From: a virus
Direction: 5' to 3' (one strand)
Length of the DNA: 28,703 nucleotides
IMG/VR virus record: IMGVR_UViG_3300044948_000151
Location: 1 to 28,703 of that record
The first letter of the stretch is position 1; each line of letters opens with the position of its first letter. Position numbers and translations under genes: made by a program. A model generated the notes under the pieces. The model was not told the origin of the DNA and ran no database searches. It saw only the letters and a program-made list of their open reading frames with translations. Shown here in pieces: positions 7,545-23,438 of this stretch.

Positions 7545-9236
7545 TTACTTAATTGTTGCCTTGCGAATTATACCTTTAACTTTGTTTTGAGTATTAGTGA
7601 TGTCGGTTTCTACTACTATTACTTTTCCTACTGTACTATCGCCTGTTGTTGTTACTTGACTGTTGCCACCTAATTTAGTACCACTAATTGATTGAGGAAT
7701 TCTCGGTGCTGTTGGTGCTATTGTTCCTGATGGTGCGCCACTCTTTCCTAATGCACTTAATCCTTTTGCTGTTGCTGCTATGTTTGCTGCCACTCCTAAT
7801 GCAGTTGAAATATTATTCATTGCTATTACTGGTATTGCAGATACTCCACTTGTTGCTATTGCTTGTGGTGTCGCTAATGCTGCTATGTTTGCTGCGTTAT
7901 TAGCAATAATCATTTTTGCTATTCCTATTGCACTTTCACCAATTAATGCTGCTGCTTGTATTTCTTTACTTTCACCATCTACTGATTGTAATATACTTAT
8001 TACTGATTGTGCTGAACTTAATGTAGCCTCTTGAATTTGTTTTTTAGCTTCGTAAATTGATTTTTCAATCTCTATTTTTTTCTTTGCTGCTTCTTCTGCA
8101 TTTTTTAAATCTAATTCTGCATTAAAGGTATTTATATCAGCAATCTTTTTTTCCTCTTCAACATTTTTTAATCTTTGAGTTTCTACCATTTCAGCAAATG
8201 ATAAATCATAAGCCTTTTTATCATCTGCTATTTTTTTATCTTCTTTTGCTTTTGCCTTTGCCTTATCTGATAAAACTTTATTATGTGCTGCAATTAAAAC
8301 CCTTTCTTCTTGCCTTAATTTTTCAAGTTCATCTTTATTTTCTTTTGCTGCTTCTTGCTTTAATTTGTTTAATGCAAGTTCTTGCTTATATGTATCTTTT
8401 CCTGATGCCTTATCAACTTCTAATTCCTTTTCTCTTTGCTTGATTAATCGGTCTAACTTTTCTGCTGCTGCTGCTTCTTCATTTGCTTTTATTCCTGCTT
8501 CTGCACCCTTCTTATAATTGCCTACTATATTATAACCATTTTTTATTTCTTCTAATGCACCTGCAAAATCACCTTGTATTAATTTACCAAGTGTTTTGAA
8601 TGGCATAAGTATAGCATTCTTAATAACTTCACCTGCACCATAAGCTACTTCACGAAGTTTATCAAATATTTTACCCATATCATTAAAGATAGGGAATGAA
8701 TTTTTAACTACTTTTGATATTGCTTCCCAATTTGCATAAAGTAATCCTGCTGCTACAACTATTAAACCTATTCCTGTTGCGCCAATACCTGCTTTAATTC
8801 CTTTTAATGCATCACCTGCTACGTTCTTTAAGTTTTTAAAAGCATCACCCATCCCCATTAAACCATTTAAACCAGTAGCTAATGCAATTGCTCCTTGTGT
8901 TTTGGCAATAGTCTTATTTAGTTCTTCGTTTTCAGTACCCATTAAAGCCATTGCACCTTGTAATGCAGAGAATCCGTTTGCTGCTATACCTACTGCACCT
9001 GCTAATGCTTGGAATTTCTTCTCGGGATGGAAAGCATTAATAGTGTCTTTGGTGTCACTAATTTTATCCTTTAATTCCCCCGCTTTTTTAGCTGCGTTTA
9101 TAAATGCATCACTACCTTCCTCAAGGTTTTGAAGTTCATTTGTAACTGCTCTTAATTCTGCTTTTAAACTTTTTACCGATGCTACCGCAGGTTGTGCTTT
9201 TACCTCTACCTCTACTACTACTTTTTCTGTTGCCAT
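7545..9236 (-). CDS. Tape measure protein
   Basis: This 563-residue protein sets tail length and is thought to be ejected ahead of the DNA. The first 60 residues are helical. Hydrophobic stretches follow around residues 80-130, then a membrane-like segment (GIGATGIGLIVVAAGLLYANW). A long charged coiled-coil region runs from about 235 to 390. A second hydrophobic Ala/Ile-rich block lies near 405-490, and a Gly/Pro-rich C-terminus ends the protein. At roughly 1.5 angstrom per residue, the rule of thumb for tape measures, the tail would be about 80-85 nm. It follows the tail-tip gene, whereas in most siphophages the tape measure precedes the tip genes. Confidence 0.85.
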   Translation of the reverse strand: MATEKVVVEVEVKAQPAVASVKSLKAELRAVTNELQNLEEGSDAFINAAKKAGELKDKISDTKDTINAFHPEKKFQALAGAVGIAANGFSALQGAMALMGTENEELNKTIAKTQGAIALATGLNGLMGMGDAFKNLKNVAGDALKGIKAGIGATGIGLIVVAAGLLYANWEAISKVVKNSFPIFNDMGKIFDKLREVAYGAGEVIKNAILMPFKTLGKLIQGDFAGALEEIKNGYNIVGNYKKGAEAGIKANEEAAAAEKLDRLIKQREKELEVDKASGKDTYKQELALNKLKQEAAKENKDELEKLRQEERVLIAAHNKVLSDKAKAKAKEDKKIADDKKAYDLSFAEMVETQRLKNVEEEKKIADINTFNAELDLKNAEEAAKKKIEIEKSIYEAKKQIQEATLSSAQSVISILQSVDGESKEIQAAALIGESAIGIAKMIIANNAANIAALATPQAIATSGVSAIPVIAMNNISTALGVAANIAATAKGLSALGKSGAPSGTIAPTAPRIPQSISGTKLGGNSQVTTTGDSTVGKVIVVETDITNTQNKVKGIIRKATIK

Positions 9237-20568: not shown

Positions 20569-20960
20569 AATTTATCTATTTTATTTAATACTTCTACTTT
20601 TTTCTCCAGTTCAGCTATCCTGTGAATAAATACATACTGCTCTTTTTGTAATCTTTTTGACTTCGCACGATACAATACATTTTCATAATTAAACTTTGCG
20701 AATACTCTTGCGTTAAACTCTTGCATTCTGTAAAGTGTTTCAAGATGCTTTAAACCGTTTTCTTTTTGTGTCCCTTGTGACTTTATCACCTTTAACTCAA
20801 ACTGCTCTATAAACGCATTAAACTCCCAAAAATCAAAGAATAAATCTTTATTGTAGTTATCTGAACCAAATAATGAGAAATATTTATTTATCTCCATTAG
20901 TAAGTTCTTATATTCAATTGTCCTAATATTTTGAATTGCTTTGTATTCTTGAAATGTCAT
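20565..20960 (-). CDS. Hypothetical helical protein
   Basis: This 131-residue protein is rich in Lys, Glu and aromatic residues and almost wholly helical, with a probable coiled coil in the C-terminal 25 residues (HRIAELEKKVEVLNKIDKL). The start overlaps the helicase stop by one base. No family was recognised. A helper of the helicase is possible by position only. A consensus DnaA-box-like sequence lies inside the gene (20621-20629). Confidence 0.75.
   Translation of the reverse strand: MTFQEYKAIQNIRTIEYKNLLMEINKYFSLFGSDNYNKDLFFDFWEFNAFIEQFELKVIKSQGTQKENGLKHLETLYRMQEFNARVFAKFNYENVLYRAKSKRLQKEQYVFIHRIAELEKKVEVLNKIDKL
20621..20629 (-). promoter_or_regulatory. DnaA-box-like sequence
   Basis: The minus strand reads TTATTCACA, a full match to the consensus TTATNCACA. 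It is single and inside a coding region, so it may be chance. Confidence 0.25.
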
Positions 20961-21931
20961 TAGAATGGTATATTGTTTTGATAAAATGAATCTACTTTTG
21001 ATTTGTTATTGTCTATGTTATTAAAAGGTGTAGCTATGTATCGCTGATATCCTTCAAACTCTTCATAGTAAGCATTCTTTATTAAATCAAAACCAAGTGC
21101 AAACCTACCTTTTGTTCCTACAATCTTTGGTTTTGCTTTCCTAATATCTATATCCACAATGTTTGATTGTATAAAGTTTCCATTATGCTCTATGTAATTA
21201 CGATGGATGCAGATTAAACTTTGTGCTTTTGCATACCATACTGAACCACCTTCTATTTCATCTGGTCTTGGTGCTCTTGGAAACTGTTCTCCTTTCTCTA
21301 CAGTAGGATTCCTTGCGTGGCAAACCATTATGTTGTGGATGTTATGGTATTTAGCAAATCTATTCCACTTTGGCAAAGCATATTTTAAATATTCAGATAT
21401 TAATCCGTTTCCTTTACCTTTTAAATCGTGGTCTAAATCATTCCAATTATCTATTACTGCCAAATTACAATTATAAAGTTTCTTTGCTTCTTTGACATAT
21501 TCAAACCATTGTTCAAAAGATATACCTGCTTCATCGTTTCCTTCTATGACTGTAAAGTAATCTTGAATAAAAGTTTTTGCATTGTATAATTCTTTTTCGC
21601 TAATATAGTTCTTATGTGCTTTGTTCATAGACTTGCCAGTTAAGCAATGAATAAGTTCACAATATATTTCAGCAGCAGTTCCTGTTTCAGGTGAATAGAT
21701 AATAGGTCTCATACCATAATTAACAACCATTGATATTAGTAGCTGATACATAAATTGAGACTTACCACTTGTAGGATGTCCGTACAAAATAGTAGTGTTA
21801 CCAAGTCTTAAGTTATAATGGTTTCTTGCACCTTCAAAACCTATAAAATGACCTGCTCTCATTCCATTCTCGTATAAATCCATAAATTCAGAATTTACTT
21901 TTTTGTCGTTTATTTTTAAGATGTTTACCAT
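20960..21931 (-). CDS. DnaB-type replicative helicase / RecA-fold ATPase
   Basis: This 323-residue protein has Walker A GHPTSGKS at residues 51-58 and Walker B LAVID at 157-161. A sensor-like HARNP follows near 206-210, and EIEGGSVWYAKAQSLICIHR (about 226-245) is typical of the DnaB/Twinkle C-terminal motor. The usual DnaB N-terminal domain is absent, since only about 45 residues precede the motor. It would unwind DNA ahead of the replication fork. It overlaps the initiator-like gene by seven bases, matching the initiator-helicase pair of many phages. All core motifs are intact. Confidence 0.88.
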   Translation of the reverse strand: MVNILKINDKKVNSEFMDLYENGMRAGHFIGFEGARNHYNLRLGNTTILYGHPTSGKSQFMYQLLISMVVNYGMRPIIYSPETGTAAEIYCELIHCLTGKSMNKAHKNYISEKELYNAKTFIQDYFTVIEGNDEAGISFEQWFEYVKEAKKLYNCNLAVIDNWNDLDHDLKGKGNGLISEYLKYALPKWNRFAKYHNIHNIMVCHARNPTVEKGEQFPRAPRPDEIEGGSVWYAKAQSLICIHRNYIEHNGNFIQSNIVDIDIRKAKPKIVGTKGRFALGFDLIKNAYYEEFEGYQRYIATPFNNIDNNKSKVDSFYQNNIPF

Positions 21932-22593
21932 ATGATATTTTTTTCAGCTATTTTGTTTTCTACTTTATTAAACTTCTTGTCATTAGTTGACCAAGTAATT
22001 AATCTCTTGTCAACTTCAAATGTTTTTTCCAAACTCATTTTTGTTTTACCCTTGTCATCTTTTTCAGACCAGTATCTATAAAATGAATTCAATATATCTT
22101 TTGAATATGTTTCTTTAAACTTTGATAATTCTTCTACAAATTCTTTATCAGAACATTTTTTATAATTAAATAAAATTTTTGGTAATAAATATTCTTCTTG
22201 TTCTTCTTCTTGTTCTTCTTCTTCTTTGCTTGGTTTCGCTAAAGGTTCGCTAAGCGTTCGGTTAGCGTTCGCTTTAATTCGCTTTGCTTCCGCTCCTTTT
22301 TTACCATTTTCACTATTTACTTTTGAAATATGACCCGCATCAATTAATTGCTCATCTAAAAAGCTAATACTAATATTACCATCAATAACAGTAAAAAATC
22401 TATCAATTAAATTATCTACAATAATTGTTTTATATCTTTTGTTTATATCCTGAAGGCTTAATTTGCCATCTCTTTGCCAGTATAAAGCACAAATATTAAT
22501 AAATAAACCTTGCGTACTTAATTCTTCATACACAATATCACCTGTAAGCCACTCGGTAGCTACAAATTTAAAAAATGGAAAGTTCTTTGCCAT
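21925..22593 (-). CDS. Replication initiator / helicase loader-like protein with internal origin repeats
   Basis: This 222-residue protein has an N-terminal winged-helix-like domain (residues 1-95: FPFFKFVATEWLTGDI, then FINICALYWQRDGKLSL) of the type seen in DUF4373 / Lin1244-like replication proteins. A flexible linker (100-136) ends in a Glu/Gln run (KEEEEQEEEQEE). A helical C-terminal domain follows (150-200: EFVELLS-like, FKETYSKDILNSFYRYW). The layout matches phage O-type initiators and DnaD-like loaders. The linker DNA carries 11-bp repeats (22235-22283). It precedes the helicase gene by a seven-base overlap. The initiator role is inferred from domain layout, partner gene and repeats. 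Confidence 0.72.
   Translation of the reverse strand: MAKNFPFFKFVATEWLTGDIVYEELSTQGLFINICALYWQRDGKLSLQDINKRYKTIIVDNLIDRFFTVIDGNISISFLDEQLIDAGHISKVNSENGKKGAEAKRIKANANRTLSEPLAKPSKEEEEQEEEQEEYLLPKILFNYKKCSDKEFVEELSKFKETYSKDILNSFYRYWSEKDDKGKTKMSLEKTFEVDKRLITWSTNDKKFNKVENKIAEKNIIW
22157..22228. other. Candidate DNA-unwinding tract next to the iterons
   Basis: Beside the iterons toward the helicase gene, the minus strand has a nearly pure purine tract (22196-22228). Toward the gene end a strongly AT-rich stretch follows (22157-22195). An asymmetric, easily melted region beside initiator repeats resembles the lambda ori arrangement. It is coding sequence, so amino-acid bias may explain part of it. 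Confidence 0.45.
22235..22283. repeat. Helically phased iterons, candidate replication origin
   Basis: TTCGCT-type units start at 22235, 22246, 22257 (TTCGGT), 22268 and 22278. The spacing is 11, 11, 11 and 10 bp, about one helical turn. The extended unit is close to GTTCGCTAAGC. The 11-bp period is not a multiple of three, so it is not a protein repeat. The block is an unusually GC-rich island in AT-rich DNA and lies in the linker-coding part of an initiator-like gene, as in lambda O. Confidence 0.7.
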
Positions 22594-22595
22594 AA

Positions 22596-22808
22596 TTAAA
22601 AAGGTTCTTTAGTAAAACTGTCCATAATTGAAATTTGTTTACGTATTTCTCTGCCAAGTTTTACTGCTGATTCTCTATCAAGACAAATGTACTGAATACC
22701 ATCTCCCTCGATTTTAATTACTAACTCTCCTCTTGTATTAACAAAGGATTCTAATTGTGTTTGTTCTTCACTCTCTCTCGTTGAAGAAAATATTAATTGA
22801 TATGACAT
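22596..22808 (-). CDS. Small hypothetical protein before the initiator gene
   Basis: This 70-residue protein starts with ATG at 22808 (MSYQLIFSST). The frame is open upstream to TTG 22823, but ATG is preferred. It has a likely beta-strand core (RGELVIKIEGDGIQYICLDRESAVKLGREIRKQI). It ends two bases before the initiator-like gene begins. It lies just after the hairpin leader, so it is the first gene of the replication operon. I do not recognise a family. Confidence 0.75.
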   Translation of the reverse strand: MSYQLIFSSTRESEEQTQLESFVNTRGELVIKIEGDGIQYICLDRESAVKLGREIRKQISIMDSFTKEPF

Positions 22809-22847: not shown

Positions 22848-22890
22848 GGAAAAACCACAGGTTAGGTTGTAGCTAACTGTGGCTTTTTCC
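22848..22890 (-). terminator. Long hairpin, bidirectional terminator / attenuator
   Basis: CCACA plus GTTAG (22855-22865) pair with CTAAC plus TGTGG (22873-22882), with one bulged G. Outer GGAAAAA (22848-22854) and TTTTTCC (22884-22890) extend the pairing. A run of five T residues follows on each strand. It lies 40 bases before ATG 22808 of the replication operon. Confidence 0.78.
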
Positions 22891-22943
22891 TATATTAATT
22901 AACTAATGGAAATTAATGATAGATGGCTAAATGGCTACAACCT
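22864..22943 (-). repeat. Ten-base inverted repeat pairing leader with hairpin
   Basis: AGGTTGTAGC (22864-22873, plus strand) and its exact reverse complement GCTACAACCT (22934-22943, plus strand) flank the leader. In the minus transcript the first copy emerges near the 5' end and could pair with the apical part of the terminator hairpin, excluding it. Confidence 0.55.
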
Positions 22944-22994: not shown

Positions 22995-23438
22995 CTAACA
23001 ATTAACTATTTTATTAAAATCAGTTAGGATTTTGTTATACTTATGAATCACCAACTTATCGTAGCTTAATAAACTATCAACTGTTTTTATGCCGTGTATT
23101 ACTGTTGTATGGTCTTTTCCAAGTTCAGGTACACACCCTTTCTTTTTAGCCATATAAAGTTCTCCTATTTCTTTTAAAGATAACGTGGTGTTTTCACGAA
23201 CTATCTTCATTGATACTTGCCTTGCCTCGCATTGTAGTCTATGTCGTGTTGTAGCGATTAAAGTTTCAATTGGTATTCCGTATTCATCTGCGCAAAGTTT
23301 TACTATTATTCGTGCTAATTCGTTATCACTGTTTACTTCTTTGCTCTTGCAGAATAAACTTACTACTATGCCAGTGTTTTGTTTTATTTTACGTTCTGCT
23401 TCAAAAATTATTTTTGAAATTATATCTTGTTTTGTCAT
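22995..23438 (-). CDS. DnaA domain IV-like replication protein
   Basis: This 147-residue protein resembles the DNA-binding C-terminal domain (IV) of DnaA. Residues 46-64 (VKLCADEYGIPIETLIATT) match the first helices, 65-80 (RHRLQCEARQVSMKIV) the basic loop and helix, and 109-115 DHTTVIH the box-recognition signature. An insertion of about ten residues (YMAKKKGCVPE) lies before that signature, where chromosomal DnaA usually has the FGGR turn. The first 40 residues are basic and helical and are not an AAA+ domain, so there is no ATPase part. It is followed by the promoter and hairpin of the replication operon. Confidence 0.85.
   Translation of the reverse strand: MTKQDIISKIIFEAERKIKQNTGIVVSLFCKSKEVNSDNELARIIVKLCADEYGIPIETLIATTRHRLQCEARQVSMKIVRENTTLSLKEIGELYMAKKKGCVPELGKDHTTVIHGIKTVDSLLSYDKLVIHKYNKILTDFNKIVNC

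Follow-up and report, generated by a model that had tools for sequence, protein, structure and literature searches.

The segment at 22.15-22.29 kb of the viral contig analysed here is very probably a replication origin situated inside the gene of its own initiator, where the N-terminal domain of the protein would bind the iterons and open the adjoining tract and the C-terminal domain would bring the helicase. The contig, a 28,703-bp stretch from IMG/VR, is referred to as the window. The repeats are kept at the level of DNA, their spacing of one helical turn recurs across the gene family, purine-rich and A/T-rich tracts lie next to them, and the N-terminal domain (N-domain) and the repeats are exchanged together between phages. 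The best reading of these observations is an intragenic iteron origin bound by a winged-helix initiator, convergent with those of lambda, P22 and L.

The candidate initiator gene and its neighbours

Relatives of the replication genes are found in phages of Flavobacterium, Cellulophaga, Leeuwenhoekiella and Riemerella. The apparent assignment to hosts of the Flavobacterium type rests on these isolate relatives because a search of genome contigs with the initiator as query found none. The features are listed in Table 1. The start of the helicase gene overlaps the 3' end of the initiator gene, and the helicase has a Pfam match to AAA_25 that falls under the family cut-off.

Table 1. Features of the candidate origin region, in window coordinates
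Feature	Position	Strand	Basis
DnaB/RecA-type helicase gene	20960..21931	-	PHROG primase/helicase E 8.5e-23, DnaB-like helicase E 2.5e-5
Candidate initiator (replisome-organizer-like) gene, 222 aa, holds the candidate origin	21925..22593	-	ORF list
C-terminal domain (ILFNYKKCSDKEF...), retained during exchange of N-domain and iterons	21925..22170	-	80-97% DNA identity
A/T-rich stretch, candidate DNA-unwinding element	22155..22193	-	37/39 A/T, counted from sequence
Purine-rich tract, coding strand (GAAGAAGAACAAGAAGAAG...)	22187..22226	-	Sequence; GAA-rich 22192-22226
Exchangeable cassette: N-domain, iterons and purine tract	22190..22598	-	Block maps against relatives
Iteron array	22225..22283	-	AGCGAA/ACCGAA cores (plus strand TTCGCT/TTCGGT); sequence and exact search
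N-terminal winged-helix-type domain, residues 1-108, presumed DNA-binding part	22270..22593	-	AlphaFold2
Small protein with only a DnaA helix-turn-helix, upstream of the initiator gene	22995-23438	-	Bac_DnaA_C E 4e-14

The initiator itself has no match in Pfam. Against PHROG it matches families of unknown function and, weakly, a primosomal protein (phrog_9327, E 7e-4), one relative has a weak DnaB_2 match, and a sequence search of solved structures returned nothing useful. The AlphaFold2 model of the N-domain (pLDDT 87.3, pTM 0.73) comprises helices and a two-stranded wing, while the linker is predicted with low confidence. The nearest solved fold identified with Foldseek is the N-terminal domain of DnaD (2vn2), a weak match with an E value of 0.15 and a TM score of 0.42. 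The description of this gene in the initial annotation as winged-helix and initiator-like agrees with the predicted domain and the 222-aa frame, with the reservation that the similarity of fold to DnaD is slight. The C-terminal domain is presumed to contact the helicase.

Two further elements lie upstream. Proteins consisting only of the DnaA helix-turn-helix are not confined to the window, as one is encoded at L034:2601-3044 and a similar gene is annotated in Harreka_1; such a phage protein could act on the DnaA sites of the host, either interfering with them or borrowing them. Between this gene and that of the initiator there is a strong hairpin at 22848-22892 (z -3.5), flanked by A/T runs and situated at the upstream edge of the exchanged cassette.

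Repeats phased with the helix and carried by codon choice

An exact search places TTCGCT at 22235, 22246, 22268 and 22278 and TTCGGT at 22257, with successive spacings of 11, 11, 11 and then 10. These are the five positions first proposed, and they are confirmed with the qualification that the third unit is the variant and the last step is shorter. A degenerate sixth unit, TTTGCT at 22225-22230, can be read from the sequence, and the core on the coding strand is A(G/C)CGAA. Tandem Repeats Finder (TRF) reports a period of 11 at 22235-22273, and the best 33-nt match at lag 11 in the whole window begins at 22231, with 25/33 positions identical and a runner-up of 20. The hexamer TTCGCT is not enriched across the window (10 occurrences against 9.2 expected) and it is the phased cluster that is unusual. 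A terminator-like scan match at 22248 arises from the repeats themselves and was not taken as a terminator.

In the coding direction the iterons are followed by the GAA-rich purine tract and then by the A/T-rich stretch, both of them present beside the array as had been noted from the sequence. The purine tract is likely the strand-asymmetric part of the unwinding region. The linkers of relatives share this character, the best 36-nt purine fraction having a median of 0.92 compared to 0.72 in other genes. At the end of the N-domain many relatives (e.g. L041, L110, L135, L035) have an AT-hook-like peptide, GGRPK, immediately before the iterons. It occurs in about half of the window's family as well as in unrelated DUF6291 N-domains and may contact the A/T tract.

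Is the repeat a property of the DNA or of the protein that it encodes? The null model applied was the same peptide recoded synonymously with the codon usage of the phage. For the window linker the match at lag 11 gives p=2e-4 with 5,000 shuffles and 5e-5 with 20,000, where 0/20,000 reached the observed value. Lag 22 gives p 3e-3 and the lags neighbouring 11 are not significant. The codon phases of successive cores are 2, 1, 0 and 2, so that all three phases are used. Since no synonymous recoding of the same peptide matched the observed period, the 11-bp repeat is kept at the DNA level via codon choice and is not imposed by the protein, in keeping with the original proposal. Charged linkers are common, and a loose 11-residue pattern can be discerned in some linkers (e.g. 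LANAKRTLSET-LANFSKE in L007), which would suit DNA repeats that are a by-product of a low-complexity linker selected as protein. That explanation is very unlikely, because the 11-bp period is lost when these peptides are recoded synonymously, the units occupy three codon phases and control genes carry no such signal; as the cause of the array a protein-level repeat was rejected on the synonymous shuffles.

A profile search with the N-domain found 80 loci which, together with earlier loci and four isolates, provided a test set of 46 non-redundant genes whose linkers and C-terminal domains diverge widely. In a first pass with full 48-codon linkers the mean z at lag 11 was 2.8. The controls, 171 segments taken from other genes of these loci, also as full 48-codon windows, gave a mean z of 0.1 with 0/171 above 3, and N-domains at this lag were the same as these controls. 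The purine tract was then trimmed and the test repeated because its 5-bp periodicity drove part of the signal at lag 10; the rerun covers the 46 linkers, and the comparison with the 171 control stretches refers to untrimmed windows. After trimming, lag 11 has the highest mean z (3.02), followed by lag 22 (1.91) and lag 10 (0.94), with values ≤0.53 at all other lags. The best lag is 11 in 25/46 linkers (binomial p 1.5e-18) and 22 in a further 12, giving 11 or 22 in 37/46. The z value at lag 11 exceeds 2 in 37/46 relatives and is ≤2 in the remaining nine. The repeats are thus conserved where the linker protein diverges, the check that the initial annotation had put forward. The sequence of the unit drifts from gene to gene (AGCGAA, ACCGAA, ACCCAA and TTCAACA cores) and the spacing is constant. 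As positive controls, the method recovers lags of 20, 23 and 24 in lambda O, where the annotated spacings are 20, 24 and 23, and lag 11 in gene 18 of phage L (p 6e-4).

Slippage can create short tandem arrays and the hexamer is not itself rare in the window, so a chance or neutral product with no function should be considered. Such an origin of the array is scarcely credible given that most of the 46 diverged genes have repeats at this place, built from units that differ in sequence, and control genes have none.

Cultured relatives with clear repeats include Cellulophaga phage phi19:1 and Leeuwenhoekiella phage Arctus_1. Two isolates have iteron-like sequence a second time, within the part of the gene that codes for the N-domain and some 185 bp upstream of the linker array, at L043 ~2640-2683 (Arctus_1 8539-8582) and L042 ~2650-2700 (morran9-1 with the long repeat GCAATGCGACCGCATTAAATCCGC). 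Riemerella phage CRP6 (L045:2222-2752) has a related C-domain preceded by a part in which some seven GATACNGTTNNT-like units recur every 12 bp, in codon frame. The CRP6 units are likely an origin variant with another period.

The other markers of an origin were uninformative or negative. GC skew, suggested at the outset as a marker at 22.2 kb, tracks the coding strand both in the window and in the complete genomes of three isolates (morran9-1, Arctus_1 and Harreka_1); with no extremum where the candidate origin lies, it speaks neither for nor against the site. DnaA boxes (TTWTNCACA) number three in the window against seven expected, with none near 22.2 kb, and a DnaA-dependent origin was rejected for want of a box cluster at the site. 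A packaging site was likewise dismissed, as the repeats are far from the terminase gene.

Exchange of the N-domain together with its repeats

The same helicase, at 92-100% identity, occurs in ten viral contigs, and comparison of these reveals natural hybrids of the initiator. In L004, L026, L028 and L029 both flanks share approximately 80-97% DNA identity with the window, and the N-domain and linker between them differ. Identity resumes at 22226 or at 22172-22177, just beyond the repeats. From about 22176 onwards the C-domain retains 80-97% DNA identity in these four and in L035, L036 and L038, and in all seven the cassette is replaced. The exchange junctions fall within 22172-22226, where the purine and A/T tract runs, next to the repeats but outside them. 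In the more distant contigs L007 and L012 the reverse applies and essentially only the cassette of about 400 bp (22598-22190) is common with the window, L012 matching additionally in a 100-bp piece at 24.6 kb.

The replacement N-domains belong to different families, namely DUF6291, Lin1244_N and an unnamed MAIFRK type. Profile comparison with the window's family detected no relation except a short NGKKGGRPK motif in DUF6291. Three of the five replacement types have a significant 10- or 11-bp array of their own by synonymous shuffle: the MAIFRK type at lag 11 (p 5e-5), DUF6291a at lag 10 (p 5e-5) and Lin1244_N at lag 11 (p 2e-4). Two DUF6291-type alleles from the same phage lineage (L026/L035/L036 and L034) show no significant array in this test. 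Among wider relatives the Lin1244_N signal (n=8, mean z 2.82 at lag 11) is as clear as that of the window's family, whilst for DUF6291 (n=42) it is weaker, having its centre at 10 bp and being raised at 9 and 12 bp as well. In the natural hybrids the type of repeat therefore goes with the DNA-binding domain, the two DUF6291 alleles lacking a significant array notwithstanding.

The segment might instead be a recombination hot spot, its repeats and purine tract promoting modular exchange between phages. The clustering of junctions in the purine and A/T tract would fit, as would the presence in the window phage of ERF and YqaJ recombination genes and NinG. We regard this as highly improbable and rejected a recombination site because the junctions lie beside the repeats; moreover, repeat sequences differ between the exchanged alleles, so the repeats cannot be the shared homology.

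A DNA-binding domain joined to its own repeats would also suit an autoregulator, and phased repeats are used by repressors too. In that case the array would be an operator at which the protein controls transcription of the operon encoding it or forms a roadblock, with replication starting elsewhere. Several points make this improbable. The array is some 310-370 bp inside the coding region and not at a promoter, the purine-asymmetric A/T tract comes after it, the helicase gene abuts that of the initiator, and this arrangement is also that of the mapped lambda origin and of the origin annotated as putative in phage L.

A replication origin within the initiator gene is thus the reading that we prefer, and we infer that the initiator binds here, the strands open, the helicase is loaded and replication begins at this site. 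The N-terminal winged-helix domain would bind the five or six A(G/C)CGAA iterons, whose spacing of one turn puts all of them on the same face of the helix. The bound initiators would build a curved nucleoprotein array that strains and opens the adjoining purine-asymmetric, A/T-rich tract, and the C-terminal domain would then recruit the product of the next gene, the DnaB/RecA-type helicase. With the origin and the DNA-binding domain in one 0.4-kb piece, origin specificity could therefore be exchanged in a single recombination event that keeps the C-domain and helicase.

Comparison with known origins and implications

The lambda origin, in the middle of gene O, consists of iterons and an A/T-rich tract (PMC7466680), the latter with nearly all purines on one strand (PMC5043065). 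The window is similar in that the part of the initiator gene encoding the linker contains the iterons, and an A/T-rich tract whose purines are on one strand comes next in the same direction. In lambda a helicase-recruiting gene is directly downstream of the initiator gene; here that position is taken by the helicase gene. However, lambda has four 18-bp iterons spaced by 20-24 bp and the window five or six units at 10-11 bp, and the next gene is helicase-like rather than a P-type loader. The initial annotation had assigned a lambda O/ori layout to a Bacteroidota phage. The order of N-domain, iterons, purine-asymmetric A/T tract, C-domain and helicase gene upholds this but the N-domain has no detectable homology to lambda O (hhalign probability 0.2%) and no Pfam match to Phage_rep_O, so the relationship is one of analogy.

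The closest published precedent is gene 18 of Salmonella phage L, where six imprecise 11-bp repeats are annotated as a putative origin and a DnaB-type helicase gene is next (PMC8022706). The 11-bp repeats within an initiator gene and the adjacent DnaB-type helicase gene are common to both systems. The iterons differ between the initiator genes of lambda, P22 and L (PMC8022706). The initiators described here are of families other than those of gene 18 in L and P22, and the exchange differs since it breaks inside the gene just past the iterons, N-domains of unrelated families entering while the C-domain stays. Similarity to DnaD and the phage replisome organizers of Firmicutes consists of the weak fold match and the weak DnaB_2 match of one relative, the N-domain in the window having no sequence homology to DnaD.

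As a rule plasmid iterons are located outside the rep gene and they often work with DnaA boxes. The array in the window differs from those of iteron plasmids, with their Rep-type winged-helix initiators, in being inside the initiator gene and in having no enrichment of DnaA boxes. The iterons of plasmids keep in phase with the helix (PMC5043065).

The Pfam families involved, DUF6291 and Lin1244_N, are annotated as unknown or uncharacterised. Searches of the open full-text literature, by Pfam name and for iterons in Bacteroidota phages, yielded no previous account of an origin or of iterons in such phages.

We consider it rather probable, with less assurance than for the origin in the window, that this is a general plug-in origin of Bacteroidota phages, in which unrelated DNA-binding domains (MAKNF type, DUF6291, Lin1244_N and MAIFRK type), each with its own iterons phased at one turn, are swapped in 0.4-kb cassettes and joined to a conserved domain that contacts the helicase. 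If so, origin specificity would change in one step, possibly to escape from satellites, plasmids or prophages with the cognate origin. A lambda study tested whether ectopic copies of the origin arrest phage proliferation (PMC4488673), and this work suggests a plausible selective reason for frequent exchange.

Should the assignment be right, origins would become readable from sequence in many such phages by the codon-shuffle test and initiator genes now listed as hypothetical would gain a function. The natural swaps would provide ready-made specificity pairs for bench work, and a lambda-style origin would have evolved convergently in non-homologous initiators.
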